From assembly GCA_003141855.1 (NCBI GenBank), contig PLNS01000008.1, positions 1 to 49,924 on the forward strand: DNA of 49,924 nt, in the 5' to 3' direction. Of this stretch, positions 1,879-13,863 are shown piece by piece; the stretch's first letter is position 1; each line of letters begins with the position of its first letter. This DNA is from Candidatus Bathyarchaeota archaeon. Lineage in GTDB: Archaea > Thermoproteota > Bathyarchaeia > Bathyarchaeales > Bathycorpusculaceae. Under the pieces are notes generated by a model that was not told the origin of the DNA, made no database searches, and was given only the letters and a program-made list of their open reading frames with translations. The translations under genes and the position numbers were made by a program.

Positions 1879-1893
1879 CACTGGAAAACAGTG
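1879..1893 (+). promoter_or_regulatory. Inverted repeat over the tupA start, candidate operator
   Basis: CACTG-GAAAA-CAGTG is a perfect 5-bp inverted repeat with a 5-base spacer. It includes the GTG start codon and the expected transcription start. A repressor bound here would block transcription. The ModE-like regulator encoded at 4800 is the obvious candidate. The assignment is inferred from position and symmetry only. Confidence 0.4.
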
Positions 1894-3231
1894 AAAAAAA
1901 TGAAAGCCACGGCAATAACAGCAGTCATATTAATAGTTATAATTGTATCTGGAATAGGCGCTTATGTAGCTTATAATTACATGCAAAATGCAGGACAGAA
2001 CACGCAACCAACCCCGACTCCAGTTCCCACGCCCTCACCATCACCGTCGACTTCAGCAACGCCTTCTCCAAGCCCAACTACATCCCCTTCTCCAACAGCT
2101 TCTCCCACTCCAACCGCAAGCCCCACAGCATCTCCCTCGCCTTCGCCATCCCCGACAACCACTCCAGTAACACTCACAGTCTCATCCACAACAAGCCTTC
2201 GTGACACAGGACTAGAAGACACCGGAACAGGCAACATAAAAGATGCATTCCAAGCCAAATACCCCTGGATAACAGTTAACTTTCTCGGACAAGGAACAGG
2301 CGCCGCAATACAAACCGCCCTGAGAGGAGATGCGGACATGATAATGGTTCATGACCCAACACAAGAAGTAACCTTCCTAAACAACGGGTATGGCGTTAAC
2401 CGCAAAATCATAGCATACAACTACTTTATCATCGTGGGGCCTCCAAATGACCCAGCAGGCGTTTTAGGTATGTCTCCAACAGATGCACTGAAACACATAG
2501 CTGACCTAGCACAAGCGGGCACACCTAACTTAATTTGGGTCTCAAGAAACGATAGTTCAGGAACATACTCAAAGGAAAAGGCGCTATGGACAGCTGCAGG
2601 CTTAAACATTGCTACACTCAGCCAGCAAACGTCATGGTTTAAATCAACTGGTTCCGGAATGGGAACAACCCTTGGAGTAGCTAACGAATTCAATGGCTAC
2701 GTATTGTCCGATACGGGAACTTACCTTGCTTACTATGGAACCGGAGCAGGCCAAATTCAGTTGAAACCTGTCGTTCAAGACCAAAAAGACCTGCTAAACG
2801 TCTACAGCGTAATAATTGACGACCCACGCAACTCAGCTCTTACTGGAACCCACTTTGACGCAGCAATGCAACTCTTAAATTACCTGGTTTCTGCTGAAGG
2901 ACAGCAATTGATTGGTAACTTTGGCAAAGCAACCTATGGGCAATCACTATTCACGCCATTTGTACCATTAGCTAGCGGCGCATCACCAAACACCGAAGTT
3001 CTAGGTTGGATACAGAACTACGCATACATCCCCGCGAGTGCAACTGAATGTCCTGCCCAATACCGCTATAACGCAGGCAACCTTTACTCGCCATCATACG
3101 ATGCGCTATCAAACGCTAATTTGAACGCTTCCATAAGCCTTCCAAACTATTACACCTCAGAAGGGCAACAGTTCATGTTTGCGCAACCAGTAACACCCAG
3201 CCAGTTCACCTATAAATTGAACAAGGCATAA
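1891..3231 (+). CDS. tupA: Tungstate-binding protein of an ABC importer
   Basis: A 446-residue protein with an N-terminal membrane anchor (about residues 5-28). A Pro/Thr/Ser-rich linker follows (about 36-95, PTPSPSPS-like repeats), then a periplasmic-binding-protein-type domain. TupA hallmarks are SSTTSLRDTG at the start of the domain, FLGQGTGAAIQ, GDADMIMVHDP and GYGVNRKIIAYNYFIIVGP. The protein should sit on the outer face of the membrane, capture tungstate (possibly molybdate) and deliver it to the permease. The linker probably spans a surface layer. GTG start chosen from the TATA box 24-32 bases upstream. Followed by the permease after 39 bases. Confidence 0.88.
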   Translation: MKKMKATAITAVILIVIIVSGIGAYVAYNYMQNAGQNTQPTPTPVPTPSPSPSTSATPSPSPTTSPSPTASPTPTASPTASPSPSPSPTTTPVTLTVSSTTSLRDTGLEDTGTGNIKDAFQAKYPWITVNFLGQGTGAAIQTALRGDADMIMVHDPTQEVTFLNNGYGVNRKIIAYNYFIIVGPPNDPAGVLGMSPTDALKHIADLAQAGTPNLIWVSRNDSSGTYSKEKALWTAAGLNIATLSQQTSWFKSTGSGMGTTLGVANEFNGYVLSDTGTYLAYYGTGAGQIQLKPVVQDQKDLLNVYSVIIDDPRNSALTGTHFDAAMQLLNYLVSAEGQQLIGNFGKATYGQSLFTPFVPLASGASPNTEVLGWIQNYAYIPASATECPAQYRYNAGNLYSPSYDALSNANLNASISLPNYYTSEGQQFMFAQPVTPSQFTYKLNKA

Positions 3232-3270
3232 GCTAGGAAAGGCTCAAATAAACTTCCCATTATTTTCTTT

Positions 3271-4026
3271 GTGATATGCATGGCTGATATTATCGTTCAA
3301 GCTTTTCAGCAAGCAATCAACTTGATAACCAGTGGCAATCCTGAAGTTTACGCAACTGTTTACAGAACCATCTATGTTGCGGGCATAGGAACCTTACTTT
3401 CTTGTTTGTGGAGTATTCCCATCGCGGTAGTTTTAGGCTTATATAATTTTAGGGGAAAATGGTTTATCAAAGGCATCTTTAATGCCTTCATAGGCATACC
3501 CACTGTTGCCCTAGGTCTTCTCATTTATTTGCTGCTGTCTAGGCAAGGCGAATTTGGCTATCTTCACCTCTTGTATACTCTTAATGGGATAGCAATCGGT
3601 CAAGCCATATTGGTAACGCCGATAATTGTCAGTTTCACTGCAAACGCGCTGGGTTCAGCGGATTCTCAACTTAGAGACTTGGCTAAAACTCTTGGAGCAT
3701 CTGGCTTTAGGACAAATCTTATCCTAATTCGAGAGACAATTTGGTCTATGGTGCTTTCTGTGACGGCAGCTTTTAACAGGGGGTTTGGAGAGCTCGGTAT
3801 TGCCACCATTGTGGGTGGAAACTTGCTGGGCGAAACCAGAGTTTTAACCACTGCTATCGCCATTGAAATCAACTTCGGAGCTTTCGACGTCGCCATGGCA
3901 TATGCGTTAATCCTTATGTTAATAGTGATTGTTTTAGCGTTAACCATCAGTCTAATAGAGCGTGTAAGGAACGAAGACGTATCATGGAGCAAACTAGTTT
4001 TCTGGAGAGGTTTAGGTGGGAATTAA
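3271..4026 (+). CDS. tupB: Tungstate ABC transporter permease
   Basis: A 251-residue inner-membrane permease with about five hydrophobic segments. The EAA-type loop that contacts the ATPase reads LRDLAKTLGASGFR around residues 133-146. It belongs to the TupB/ModB branch by context and by the FNRGFGELGIATIVGGNLLGET segment (here given only to orient the reader). The start is GTG at 3271, with an ATG at 3280 as an alternative. The last 11 bases overlap the ATPase gene, indicating translational coupling. Confidence 0.88.
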   Translation: MICMADIIVQAFQQAINLITSGNPEVYATVYRTIYVAGIGTLLSCLWSIPIAVVLGLYNFRGKWFIKGIFNAFIGIPTVALGLLIYLLLSRQGEFGYLHLLYTLNGIAIGQAILVTPIIVSFTANALGSADSQLRDLAKTLGASGFRTNLILIRETIWSMVLSVTAAFNRGFGELGIATIVGGNLLGETRVLTTAIAIEINFGAFDVAMAYALILMLIVIVLALTISLIERVRNEDVSWSKLVFWRGLGGN

Positions 4027-4747
4027 AGCCATGAGTGTTAACCTTCAGTTAGTAGACCTCACAAAGAAATATCGCGATGTTAAAGCATTAAAATCTGTGT
4101 CTTTGGAGCTGCAGGGCAACAAAATAATCGTCCTCCTTGGAGTCAATGGCGCAGGCAAAACTACGCTTATGCGGATCATGGCTGGCTTAGAGGACTCTGA
4201 CAGCGGGCAAATCTTATTCAACAACCAAAACACAGAACCCAAAGCACTACGCCGAGTTTCAACCTTGGTTTTTCAGAAAACAGCCATGTTTACTATGAAC
4301 GTTTACGGCAATCTGGCTTTCGGGCTTAAAATCCGTAAAGTACCAAGAGAAGAAATTCCCAAAAGAGTGGAGGAAGCATTGCAGGCTGTCAGGCTCCCAG
4401 AGTTTGAGAAGCGAAGGGCAAAGAGGCTGTCGGGTGGAGAGCAGCAAAGAATCGCTTTAGCACGGGCGTTTCTGCTTGATTCGCATGTTTTGCTTTTGGA
4501 TGAGCCCACGGCAAACCTGGATCCGAACAGTGCAATCATTATCGAGAAGGCAATCATTAGCAAAAAAAGCAGTCAGCGCGTCATAGTCATGGCTACTCAT
4601 AATCTCAACCAAGCAAGACGAATGGCTGATGAAATAGTCCACATCCACAACGGCGAAATAGTTGAAATTGCTAAACCCGCGGATTTCTTTGAGAACCCCA
4701 AAAGCGAGATAACGCGCAAATTCATTAACGGTGAACTGGATTTCTAA
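4016..4747 (+). CDS. tupC: Tungstate ABC transporter ATP-binding protein
   Basis: A 243-residue ABC ATPase. It shows Walker A (GVNGAGKTT), Q-loop (FQKTAM), signature (LSGGEQQR), Walker B with catalytic Glu (LLLDEPTANLDP) and the switch His (ATHN). It powers tungstate import with the upstream permease and binding protein. The GTG at 4016 overlaps tupB; an in-frame ATG at 4031 is also possible. There is no C-terminal TOBE/Mop domain as in many ModC proteins; that domain is carried by the regulator downstream. Confidence 0.9.
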   Translation: MGIKAMSVNLQLVDLTKKYRDVKALKSVSLELQGNKIIVLLGVNGAGKTTLMRIMAGLEDSDSGQILFNNQNTEPKALRRVSTLVFQKTAMFTMNVYGNLAFGLKIRKVPREEIPKRVEEALQAVRLPEFEKRRAKRLSGGEQQRIALARAFLLDSHVLLLDEPTANLDPNSAIIIEKAIISKKSSQRVIVMATHNLNQARRMADEIVHIHNGEIVEIAKPADFFENPKSEITRKFINGELDF

Positions 4748-4764
4748 TTTCGGGTGCTAAGCAG

Positions 4765-4772
4765 CTTTATAT
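4765..4772 (+). promoter_or_regulatory. TATA box of the ModE-like gene
   Basis: CTTTATAT is centred about 31 bases before the ATG at 4800, typical for a leaderless archaeal gene. It shows that the regulator has its own promoter in the 52-base gap after tupC. Confidence 0.55.
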
Positions 4773-4799
4773 GGACTTTACTACATAACCATAATTAGA

Positions 4800-5357
4800 A
4801 TGCTCAGCAACAAGAAACATACGCTGTCCTGCAAAGCTTGGATTGAATACAAAGGAAAACCCTTAATCGGCAAAGGCGGAGCAGAAATTCTAGACGCCAT
4901 TGGCAAGGAGAACTCGATTTCTAAAGCTGCAGAAACACTTGGAATGTCTTACCGTTACGTTTGGAACTACATACAGGAAATCCAAAGCGCAATGGAGGAA
5001 CCAATAGTTGACACTTACAAGGGCGGAAAATCCGGCGGAGGCGGCGCAAAATTGACTGATTTGGGCAGAAGTTTGCTTGGTGAGTATAAACAAGTTGAGA
5101 GTTACTTGGATAAAGTTTTGTCTAACCAAGGATGTTTGGAGGTGAAAGGTTTGAAGTTAAGTGCAAGAAACCAGTTTAAAGGAAAAGTCTTAGCTGTTGA
5201 AAAAGGCGTCATAACAGCCAAAGTTAAGGTCGAAGTTAAAATGCCCATAACCGTTACCGCAGTCATAACAAAAGAAGCAGTCGAAGAATTAGACATAAAA
5301 GTCGGCGACGAAGTTACTGCAATCGTGAAATCAACAGAAATCATGATTGCAAAATAA
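4800..5357 (+). CDS. ModE-like molybdate/tungstate-responsive regulator
   Basis: A 185-residue protein with two parts. The N-terminal LysR-type winged helix (about residues 12-95) has the ModE pattern: SISKAAETLGMSYRYVWNYI as the helix-turn-helix, then GGKSGGGGAKLTDLG as the wing. The C-terminal single Mop/TOBE domain (about 118-185) includes SARNQFKGKVL and VTAIVKSTEIMI and binds the oxyanion. It should sense tungstate or molybdate and control the adjacent tupABC genes. Its ATG sits at the expected transcription start. The convergent Rpb5 gene begins its stop only 9 bases beyond this gene. Confidence 0.88.
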   Translation: MLSNKKHTLSCKAWIEYKGKPLIGKGGAEILDAIGKENSISKAAETLGMSYRYVWNYIQEIQSAMEEPIVDTYKGGKSGGGGAKLTDLGRSLLGEYKQVESYLDKVLSNQGCLEVKGLKLSARNQFKGKVLAVEKGVITAKVKVEVKMPITVTAVITKEAVEELDIKVGDEVTAIVKSTEIMIAK

Positions 5358-5368
5358 AACTTTTTTTA
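5358..5368 (+). terminator. T-tract terminator between convergent genes
   Basis: Seven consecutive T (5361-5367) follow the ModE-like stop codon by four bases. Archaeal RNA polymerase terminates at such T-runs. The tract overlaps the stop codon of the convergent Rpb5 gene. Confidence 0.4.
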
Positions 5369-5917
5369 CTCCACTACGTACCTGTAGGCTATGTGTTCGC
5401 CTGCTGTTATGCTTTTTCTTGTGATTTTCAGTACGTCGCCTGGTTTTGCACCTATCGCTTTAACGGCTGGGTCGCCTGATTTGATTTGCGGTATCTGGTA
5501 GGGTTTAACTTTGAATTGTGCAAGGAGTTGGTTCTTTTCTTTTTCGCTTAGGATTTCGTGGAATGGGACTAGTTCATGCTCGAAGATGTCGAACACCGGG
5601 AACGATTTGGGCAGTAACTCCACTTTTCTCTTCTTTGCTCCTAGTTTAACGGCGTGGGTGTAGCGTCCTTCGGTGACTACGATGGCTCGGTCGAGGTCTT
5701 TTTCCTTCATTATTTTGTAGAGAGTGTTCATGGCTGCGATGCCGACGGTGGCTTCGCCTAGGATGCACCAGACGATTGCTCTCTCTTTGTCCTGTGGGAT
5801 GTCGATGATGTAGGCGTATGCGCCTTCAAACTTTTCTTTTTCGATAAGCTTGTATTTTCTTAGTTTGATTAGAACTTCTGCTTTCCGTTCTTCGATTGTT
5901 TCAACTTTAGTGCTCAA
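5366..5917 (-). CDS. rpoH: RNA polymerase subunit Rpb5/RpoH with an N-terminal jaw-like domain
   Basis: The C-terminal 75 residues are a clear RpoH/Rpb5 assembly domain: [15 protein letters not shown], then [15 protein letters not shown] and [15 protein letters not shown]. Upstream lie about 105 more residues, including [20 protein letters not shown] and AIVVTEGR. These parallel the eukaryotic Rpb5 jaw-domain region that leads into the same EHELVP motif. Usual archaeal RpoH has only the C-terminal part (about 80 residues). A TTG at 5917 with GAGGT seven bases upstream gives 183 residues; an ATG at 5962 would add 15. It is not beside rpoB, its usual archaeal neighbour. Confidence 0.85.
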
Positions 5918-6083
5918 ACCACAAACCTCAAAGGTAGAATACTCGCAACCTAAAACAAACATTTACCCTTAAACTTTTCGCATGATTCTTGGAGATGTCA
6001 ACCGCGCAACCTTCTGCTTTTCTTTTTTGGGAGGCACTTAACTAGAAGTATTGTGTATTTTACTTGAAAGCGACACTGTTTTT

Positions 6084-9470: not shown

Positions 9471-10211
9471 ATGACCTTAATTGTCTGTTTAAGAGGAACA
9501 GATGGAATGATTCTGGCGTGTGATAGCAGAGGTACCTTTGGGGATCCACGAGGCGTAACGGCACAAAATGATAACATGCAAAAAGTCTACGCAGTTTCTA
9601 AGTATGTTGGCGTTCTTCTCGCTGGAAGTGGCGAATTAGGCTCAATGATTATCAATGAAATACAGCGAGAAATAGCTACAAAAAAGACTGAAGGTGTAAC
9701 ACCCGTTATGGAACTCATAAGAGACATACTCATTCGCCGATTCAATGAGTGGTTTCCAGGATTCTTAATCCAACCTATTCAAGGAGCAACCAATCCAGTC
9801 AGACCAAACCTCGTCTTCATAGTAGGCGGATATGACCTAAACGGAGAAGGCAAACCAACAATACAGAGAACATATAACCTGAACAGTATGATGAATTTTG
9901 CGCCATTTCTGATTGATTACGGTTTTGCGCTTGAAGGCGTGCCACAATACGCATTGTACTTGTTGAACAGACTATATAGCCCAGAATCAAACGTCATTAA
10001 CCTTATGCCACTTGCAGCTTATGTTATAACTGAAACGTCAAGTCAAGATGGTAAAGTTGGCGGTCCCGTAAAAATGCTTAAGATACTACCCGATGCTGGT
10101 TGCATACCTTTGACTGCGGAAGAAATAAATACGGTTATTAAATCTAATAATGATAGAAGTAAAAACCTAAAAACATCATTTTTCGGAAGTGAACAAAATG
10201 TCACAACCTAA
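9471..10211 (+). CDS. Proteasome-fold (Ntn) hydrolase, Anbu/HslV-like
   Basis: A 246-residue protein. After Met removal Thr1 would be the N-terminal nucleophile. Asp17, Arg19 and Thr21 (ACDSRGT) fall at the same numbers as in proteasome beta subunits. A Lys near 37 (DNMQKVYAV) can serve as the active-site lysine, about four residues later than usual. GVLLAGSGELG is the typical strand-helix step. The C-terminal DGKVGGPVKMLKI resembles the Anbu/HslV end better than classical beta subunits. No propeptide is present. It probably self-assembles as a threonine protease; the substrate is unknown. It overlaps a 55-residue ORF by 14 bases. Confidence 0.8.
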   Translation: MTLIVCLRGTDGMILACDSRGTFGDPRGVTAQNDNMQKVYAVSKYVGVLLAGSGELGSMIINEIQREIATKKTEGVTPVMELIRDILIRRFNEWFPGFLIQPIQGATNPVRPNLVFIVGGYDLNGEGKPTIQRTYNLNSMMNFAPFLIDYGFALEGVPQYALYLLNRLYSPESNVINLMPLAAYVITETSSQDGKVGGPVKMLKILPDAGCIPLTAEEINTVIKSNNDRSKNLKTSFFGSEQNVTT

Positions 10212-12017: not shown

Positions 12018-12962
12018 CTATTTTTTCAAGGAAAGAACCGTTCGAATCTGATCTTGAGTCTCGTGTGGACTTGCGGTTGTGTTCACGAGGTAAACGGTGG
12101 TTTGTTCGAAGAGTCTTCGAAAGAAGTTTGTTCTAACCGCGATTTTTCTGCTGTCCTTTACCAGTTGGTGCGGGTTGCAAAAGTTGTTCTTCAACATGTA
12201 CTGCACAGCTTCATCGGCATTCAAGGCGGTGACAATGTTCTTGTCGGAGGGGTCGCGTTTTAGCAGGATTATTTTGTGCAGTGTCGCCATTGGAATCACG
12301 CCGCCGTTGCCTACAATCCACCGCACGTTCACTATTGCCCTGCCGCGCTGGTCAAACTGCGCCTTATCAACTAAACGTTCGTACTCATTCCATATCTTGC
12401 CAATGTCCGCTTGGATGTAAGTGTTTTTTTCGGAGCCAAACGCTAAGGGTTCACGGCTGCTCAGCCGCACGAAATACCAGTCATCGCTGATTAACCGTGC
12501 AGTTGGAATACGCAGTAACCCCCATGAATGAGTTGTTTTGCCCGTGCCTGACGGAGCGATAATTGAAACACCCATACAATTGATATCAATCATGGCGCCG
12601 TGAACCGAGTAAATCCTGTGCTCATCTTCTAGGACATCGCCTGCAACCGCGAGGGCAATGCTCTTCACCCAACCGTAATAATCCACGTTAATCAAAAAAG
12701 CCGTCTTCGTATAAGCATCATACTTAACGCTGAAAGGCTGACCTGGCTCAGATAAAACAATAAGCCGTCCGTGAGAGCGGTTGTTTTCGTTTGCGGAAAA
12801 AAAGTTGTCTTCCCACTTGTTCTTGGTTGCCTCGGAATCGGTTAAGATTTTTATGCAGCAGCCGTAAATTTCAGCCTTGCTCGTGTAGAGTAGTCTGGGT
12901 TCGTAGGTTTCATAGAGCCTGTCTTTTTCTTCAGGGTTTATTAACTCTACTGCATAGCTCAT
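12018..12962 (-). CDS. HPr-kinase-like P-loop protein
   Basis: A 314-residue protein. A Walker A motif, APSGTGKTTHSW (about residue 134), is followed by ISDDWYFVR. This is the arrangement of the HPr kinase/phosphorylase C-terminal domain and the related PEP-carboxykinase-like fold. The N-terminal 125 residues contain a YSVHGAMID strand leading to the P-loop. No phosphotransferase-system genes are nearby, and archaea of this type usually lack HPr, so the substrate is probably a different protein or small molecule (compare archaeal serine kinases of this fold). ATG start. Confidence 0.7.
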   Translation of the reverse strand: MSYAVELINPEEKDRLYETYEPRLLYTSKAEIYGCCIKILTDSEATKNKWEDNFFSANENNRSHGRLIVLSEPGQPFSVKYDAYTKTAFLINVDYYGWVKSIALAVAGDVLEDEHRIYSVHGAMIDINCMGVSIIAPSGTGKTTHSWGLLRIPTARLISDDWYFVRLSSREPLAFGSEKNTYIQADIGKIWNEYERLVDKAQFDQRGRAIVNVRWIVGNGGVIPMATLHKIILLKRDPSDKNIVTALNADEAVQYMLKNNFCNPHQLVKDSRKIAVRTNFFRRLFEQTTVYLVNTTASPHETQDQIRTVLSLKK

Positions 12963-13231: not shown

Positions 13232-13636
13232 TTAAAGCCACCTTGTTTTGGTTTCCTTAATCTGTTTAATGTGGTTATCATCTGTCACAACACAGTCTGA
13301 AGCGGTTTCAATTGCCGTCGCCGCTATGATAGCATCAGCCGTAGGCAATTCCGCATATTTACACCGTAACTTCGCAGCTTCAATAGCTATAGATAAATCA
13401 AGGTTCATTAACTGTAACCTTAATTTTAGAACCGAGTTTACTCTCATTTCTGCGACCTCTTTCCCAAAGTCTTCTAACTGAATCTTATACAACTCAAGGA
13501 TTACAATTGAAGGAACCATTCCTAGGTTCGTTTTTCTTTCAAGATTGTCCAGCGTAACTCTTGCCCATTTCTTAAACTGTTCATCTTTGCTTTCAAGGCT
13601 TGCAATAAAGAATCGAGTATCCAATACGGCTTTCAT
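13232..13636 (-). CDS. vapC: PIN-domain toxin (VapC-like ribonuclease)
   Basis: A 134-residue PIN domain with the expected acidic active-site residues: Asp6 in AVLDTRFF, a mid-protein Glu, Asp in TADAIIAATA and Asp in CVVTDDNH. VapC toxins cleave RNA, often tRNA, when freed from their antitoxin. Its ATG overlaps the antitoxin stop by one base (TAATG), so the two are translationally coupled. It is the second gene of the pair. Confidence 0.88.
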   Translation of the reverse strand: MKAVLDTRFFIASLESKDEQFKKWARVTLDNLERKTNLGMVPSIVILELYKIQLEDFGKEVAEMRVNSVLKLRLQLMNLDLSIAIEAAKLRCKYAELPTADAIIAATAIETASDCVVTDDNHIKQIKETKTRWL

Positions 13637-13863
13637 TAATACCTGTCTTCTGACCGCATTTTATCCAATCTTTTCAGTGTTTCTTTCAAGTCTGCTTTTT
13701 CAGCATCAGTACCTATAAGGTCTTGAAATCGAGGAATCACTTTGAGAACTATCCCTGAAGACGAGTCTTCAAAGATTATTTTCATACCTTCTTCTATCCC
13801 GTATTTGCGTCTAAGTTCAATAGGAACAGTCACTTGACCTTTACGAGTAACAAGCACTTCCAT
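13636..13863 (-). CDS. vapB: AbrB/SpoVT-type antitoxin (VapB-like)
   Basis: A 75-residue protein. The N-terminal swapped-hairpin AbrB fold is MEVLVTRKGQVTVPIELRRK, followed by YGIEEGMKIIF. The C-terminal tail (about 50-75) is charged and helical and should occupy the toxin's active site. It binds DNA and probably represses its own operon through the inverted repeat just upstream. ATG start with a GGAG-like site in CTTGGAGTTG. Confidence 0.88.
   Translation of the reverse strand: MEVLVTRKGQVTVPIELRRKYGIEEGMKIIFEDSSSGIVLKVIPRFQDLIGTDAEKADLKETLKRLDKMRSEDRY

Follow-up and report, generated by a model that had tools for sequence, protein, structure and literature searches.

The window, by which we mean the whole stretch of 49,924 nucleotides analysed here, carries on its minus strand a gene for Rpo5 (RpoH), an RNA polymerase subunit whose archaeal version is very short in textbooks. 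The rpo5 gene probably extends over 5366–5917 from a TTG start, and its frame stays open to an ATG at 5962. Two domains are predicted in its product, both on the minus strand: the Rpo5/Rpb5 C-terminal (assembly) domain, PF01191, at 5375–5593 (Pfam match), and upstream of it, at 5594–5911, an inactive restriction-endonuclease-like N-domain that resembles both Mrr nucleases and the Rpb5 jaw (A1 profile, E 4.8e-41; G000:C4:5594-5911).

From the ATG, a single uninterrupted frame of 198 codons covers 5366–5962, which is the extent given by the first-pass annotation. The frame is indeed open throughout and contains both N-terminal strings quoted there, but its start was probably placed too far upstream. 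A GAGGT Shine-Dalgarno-like site (5925–5929, minus strand) precedes the TTG at residue 16 (5917), and GAGGT followed by TTG recurs in nearly all relatives inspected. GAGG or GAGGT is found at the same place in most of the long rpo5 genes inspected, with TTG, GTG or ATG as the start codon behind it, whereas an ATG equivalent to 5962 is present in few relatives. The protein conserved among the relatives compared begins near residue 20. Because the Shine-Dalgarno site and TTG are conserved and the upstream ATG is rare, translation probably starts at TTG 5917 and not at ATG 5962, which would yield a product of about 183 amino acids with about 107 residues in front of the RpoH domain, close to the 105 or so estimated before.

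The C-terminal domain is complete. PF01191 (Rpb5_C) matches residues 124–196 over profile positions 1–73 of 73 (E 9.1e-29), and the NCBIfam RpoH equivalog is matched with E 1.4e-30 and 104.9 bits over a cut-off of 83, in agreement with the initial reading of a full RpoH domain carrying an N-terminal extension. The same C-domain is shared with the short archaeal Rpo5/RpoH proteins 4qiw_H and 2waq_H (E 1e-23 to 3e-16); these lack the N-domain and their gene precedes rpoB, whereas the window Rpo5 has the N-domain and its gene has been relocated. In the 95.97%-complete genome, PF01191 has one match only, the window rpo5. The genome's only rpoB lies on another contig (C25), where it is followed by rpoA′ and has no rpo5 upstream, so that the reported detachment from rpoB is borne out. 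From the sole PF01191 match and the lack of an rpo5 next to rpoB, it follows that no second, short rpoH adjoining rpoB is present in this assembly (∼96% complete, PF01191 profile search). The profile matches thus show the window gene to be the genome's only gene for the Rpo5 subunit of RNA polymerase. The suggestion that it might be a paralogue is not supported, and the single match in the genome rules out a second, paralogous rpo5. A position beside rpoB is the usual arrangement of rpo5, not a requirement for membership of the Rpo5 family.

Open frames from stop to stop by themselves prove nothing, and the N-terminal part could in principle result from a mis-joined or misannotated frame that is not translated together with the RpoH domain. 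We regard this as scarcely conceivable, since a Shine-Dalgarno site and a start codon are conserved ahead of the N-domain, 71 distinct long rpo5 loci were collected, and dN/dS of the N-part is far below 1. In comparisons with seven congeners, the N-part shows dN of 0.02–0.10 against dS of 0.63–1.28 (one dS saturated). Where the ratio is computable, dN is 0.02–0.05 and dN/dS ∼0.03–0.07; in most congener pairs this ratio is similar to or below the value for the C-part. Differences at codon positions 1/2/3 of the N-part number 1037/384/5046, an excess at position 3 as in the C-part. An untranslated upstream region is therefore ruled out by the conserved start, the low dN/dS and the 71 long loci, and these results show that the N-part is under purifying selection and forms one translated protein with the RpoH domain.

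The N-domain of the window protein scores above the curated cut-offs of two Pfam families of nuclease-like domains, PF22722 (NA-iREase1) and PF04471 (Mrr_cat), and both models were matched by 17 of 17 diverse N-domains (best 1.2e-11). Unlike the proteins of these families, to which it is related by sequence, the window N-domain lacks the catalytic residues and is joined to an RNA polymerase subunit. Where Mrr nucleases have the catalytic motif (E/Q)xK, the aligned columns hold WCI (residues 65–67; 5762–5770, minus strand). Among 43 Rpo5 N-domains, the catalytic D is retained in 3, the E/Q in 2 and the K in none, compared with 5/6, 5/6 and 4/6 for the Mrr proteins found in this class. Because the catalytic columns are lost, the Rpo5 N-domain is, as judged from the alignment, a catalytically inactive restriction-endonuclease-like domain of the Mrr type (PD-(D/E)XK). 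The eukaryotic Rpb5 N-domain has likewise been described as an inactive PD-(D/E)XK-type fold (PMC1185551, PMC551604). The Mrr_cat match above its curated cut-off would also fit an RNA polymerase that carries an active nuclease, a very improbable reading given that the catalytic D, E/Q and K columns are gone in nearly all members; the loss across the 43 N-domains rules it out. The jaw-like character seen in the N-part by the first-pass annotation stands, but its Mrr-like restriction-endonuclease identity had been missed.

Single-sequence AlphaFold models reached a pLDDT of 49 for the full-length protein and 65 for the N-domain only. The order of elements in the N-only model is a-b-b-b-a-b-b-b, and this pLDDT 65 model gave no fold match at E ≤ 0.001. 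In the fold search with the full-length model (pLDDT 49), RPB5 ranked first but with a TM of ∼0.2 and an rmsd of ∼16 Å, and the top rank is therefore not structural evidence.

The same dead-nuclease domain occurs in a second family of proteins of 174–252 amino acids (loci L136–L146 and L149, e.g. G170:C34 and G007:C2:800475), in which it is followed by a Cys-rich C-terminal domain. The latter has the pattern LC..KCG.iP...dCkGy...C.vRliSDnAsFH and no significant Pfam match. N-domains of these paralogues keep the catalytic D and have lost E and K, and the family is also present in taxonomic families with a short Rpo5. A Cys-rich, zinc-ribbon-like insertion (LKCEHCGHMFPLKGGIRECPKCKE) was found within the N-domain of one Rpo5 (L010, G060:C43); its close relative L015 has no such insertion.

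Searched against the whole PDB (177,635 sequences), a profile built from the archaeal N-domains only found RPB5 as its seven best matches (E 6.1e-5 to 4.6e-3); the best match other than RPB5 had E 0.13, and LlaBIII 0.82. Profile-profile comparison restricted to N-domains gave P 1.4e-6 for Rpo5-N against eukaryotic RPB5-N, versus 5e-4, 3.4e-3 and 0.09 for RPB5-N against the Cys-rich paralogues, the Mrr proteins and a short Mrr-like family of the class, respectively. Scored with RPB5-N, subsamples of six Rpo5-N sequences reached 29–45, compared with 21–28 for the paralogues. In the reverse direction, an RPB5-N profile searched against 61 whole genomes had rpo5 as its best match in 28 of the 35 genomes matched, with a best E of 2e-5 for rpo5 and E 0.155 in the genome of the window. 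The Pfam model PF03871 (RNA_pol_Rpb5_N) matched neither the window protein nor the diverse N-domains, nor any rpo5 in the genome search. In yeast RPB5 this model spans residues 6–99 and therefore ends short of the T-x-[SA]-A positions in the stretch that aligns best.

This stretch includes the loop GRYTHAVK (residues 99–106; 5645–5668, minus strand), the aligned counterpart of the Rpb5 "TPSA" loop, which is reported to touch downstream DNA (PMC6690254), and the archaeal loop may make a similar contact. A motif [YF][TSV].[ASEV][AVG][KR] occupies the place of TPSA(K) in 65 of 71 long forms, and the aligned positions common to the archaeal N-domain and RPB5 are RGY, VG(I/V) and T-x-[SA]-x-K. Together, the profile comparisons show a specific similarity, at the level of sequence, between the archaeal Rpo5 N-domain and that of eukaryotic Rpb5. 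RPB5/RPABC1 (yeast 1dzf), made up of jaw and assembly domain, has the same domain order, a short junction and a homologous C-domain, besides an N-domain with this detectable specific similarity and a reported inactive fold (PMC1185551, PMC551604). The two proteins differ in the length of the N-terminal part (∼107 residues in the window Rpo5, ∼140 in RPB5), in the loop, where the archaeal (G)RYTxxxK lacks the proline of TPSA, and in the match to Mrr_cat, strong for the archaeal N-domain and weak for RPB5. The eukaryote-like layout proposed earlier is thus upheld by reciprocal N-only profile matches with RPB5 as the best in the PDB, the same domain order, almost no linker, and an inactive nuclease-like domain in both proteins.

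Within the order sampled, members with an Rpo5 match have the long form (180–240 amino acids from stop to stop); the exception is G174, in which Rpo5 is cut by the contig end. The long form also occurs in six further families of the class, which is probably Bathyarchaeia (f14, f15, f17, f19, f20, f26), and short Rpo5 frames of 85–136 amino acids are found in others of the same class (f10–f13, f16, f18, f22–f25, f27). In 255 genomes of the other classes of the phylum, no open frame combines the N-domain with Rpo5; N-domain matches there are few, weak (E ∼1e-6 to 1e-9) and located in unrelated frames of 162–582 amino acids. No relatives were found in the viral contigs searched. Hence, the long Rpo5 is widespread in the class but confined to part of it. 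Gene order follows the same division. Of 33 usable loci with a short rpo5, 30 have rpoB immediately downstream (9/9 inside the class); among 67 distinct loci with a long rpo5 and 600 or more bases of sequence behind it, none does. It therefore looks as if gain of the N-domain coincides with exit from the rpoB operon and as if the short, operon-borne state is ancestral.

Some genomes (G066 and G118, with L135 and L147, as well as G040, G043, G193 and G200) contain two or three Rpo5-domain matches. Among these are a second copy that is degraded and an N-domain copy standing alone.

We consider it rather probable that the window gene encodes a sole Rpo5 with a dead Mrr-type N-domain that is jaw-like, acts at the downstream DNA and was gained in this class independently of eukaryotes. 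Docking of the C-domain on Rpo1, as known from other archaea, would make the N-domain project at the cleft's downstream end. There it would work as the jaw of Rpb5 does and guide or hold downstream DNA through the GRYTxxxK loop, which would lie close by. Rpo13 of Sulfolobus fills a positively charged groove next to Rpo5 that is there because the jaw is missing; in eukaryotes, the jaw takes up part of this place (PMC2675907). The N-domain could take this place, or the groove left open in other archaea. Rpo13 of the Sulfolobales would then be its presumed functional analogue, although it is an unrelated helix-turn-helix protein and a separate subunit, unlike the fused N-domain. A local pool of dead-nuclease domains may have supplied the N-domain at the time of rpo5's departure from the rpoB operon. 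Within the class, domains of this type are also found alone or with a Cys-rich C-terminus, and NA-iREase1 is named after an association with NACHT proteins; the N-domain might accordingly be no jaw but a fused module with a different binding partner, for instance a protein of defence, repair or regulation, and RNA polymerase would then be only its tether. We judge this improbable in view of the retention of the domain across the order, the strong purifying selection, the very short linker and the specific likeness to Rpb5-N, all of which argue that the domain is an integral part of the polymerase.

Does the jaw-like archaeal N-domain share its origin with the jaw of eukaryotes? In a tree of the C-domain (73 columns), a starred fork (98/82) puts eukaryotes among short forms of archaea and not with the long ones. 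An AU test on these columns rejected long forms plus eukaryotes as one group (p 0.043), yet also the long forms alone (p 0.025), so that multiple origins or a misleading short alignment may apply. The N-domain tree (113 columns) leaves the placement of eukaryotes unsettled, with AU p 0.06 against Rpo5-N plus eukaryotes and 0.21 for Mrr plus eukaryotes. In L148 and L164 (f19) and L046 and L052 (genus g38 of f9), the Rpo5 N-domain scores higher with the profile of the Cys-rich paralogues than with the main Rpo5-N profile and the C-domain is that of an ordinary Rpo5, a possible domain replacement or second fusion. This suggests that N-domains may have been captured or replaced more than once (f19; g38). 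Based on the C-domain tree, which places eukaryotes with short forms, and on the possible repeated capture, we favour a gain of the jaw-like N-domain inside the class, parallel to that in eukaryotes.

Alternatively, the archaeal N-domain and the Rpb5 jaw may derive from one fused ancestor, either because a full-length Rpb5 was lost by most archaea or because of transfer between the class and the eukaryotic stem. N-only searches are reciprocal in their best matches, and RPB5-N is closer to Rpo5-N than to the Mrr and paralogue families sampled; domain order and missing linker are the same, both N-domains are dead, and the RGY, VG(I/V) and T-x-[SA]-x-K positions align. These mutual best matches, which would fit common descent or transfer as well as an independent gain, are hard to dismiss, and Asgard archaea were not included in the genomes sampled for Rpo5 forms; common descent or transfer therefore keeps a substantial minority of the probability. 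Against it, the long form is missing from the 255 genomes of the other classes and from the solved euryarchaeal and Sulfolobales Rpo5, the conserved rpoB operon belongs to the short form, and the C-domain tree and AU tests separate eukaryotes from the long forms with the reservations given above. The ancestral full-length Rpb5 put forward by the first-pass annotation is possible but not favoured, as the long form is found in part of one class and never before rpoB, the C-domains of eukaryotes fall with the short forms, and the N-domain tree does not settle where eukaryotes belong. Only slightly less probable than common descent or transfer in general, we think, is that a jaw-bearing Rpb5 is older than eukaryotes and survives in this archaeal class, its jaw being a true counterpart by descent and not a eukaryotic invention.

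Archaeal RpoH has been described as lacking the Rpb5 N-terminal domain, which was called eukaryote-specific (PMC3906176, PMC2675907, PMC6690254), a statement that in PMC3906176 and PMC2675907 covers the archaea known to those authors. A long Rpo5 goes unmentioned in a 2026 survey of small subunits of archaeal RNA polymerase that includes Bathyarchaeota models (PMC13257274), and we found no description of one in the open-access literature that the search covered. With an archaeal Rpo5 that carries a similar dead-nuclease domain and is widespread in one class, the origin of the jaw can be put to the test, and jaw function can be studied in a simple system with one polymerase. If gained independently, the domain would be a clear example of two lineages extending one subunit at the same end with the same kind of domain; otherwise, reconstruction of the polymerase of the archaeal-eukaryotic ancestor would change.

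Further genes were predicted elsewhere in the window. For an archaeal protein at 12018–12962 (minus strand), the match to an HPr-kinase-C-like P-loop stays under the curated cut-off, and a gene pair at 13232–13863 (minus strand) encodes an AbrB/MazE-type antitoxin and a PIN-domain protein. The 246-amino-acid product of 9471–10211 (plus strand) is a partial proteasome-subunit-like protein (Ntn hydrolase) and perhaps not a core proteasome subunit. The region next to rpo5, 1891–5357, encodes an anion ABC transporter, judged by its neighbourhood to be of the tungstate/molybdate type, and a LysR-HTH plus TOBE (ModE-like) regulator. The regulator gene is convergent with rpo5, and such a regulator is found near the long rpo5 in ten loci of families f1, f2, f4 and f6.
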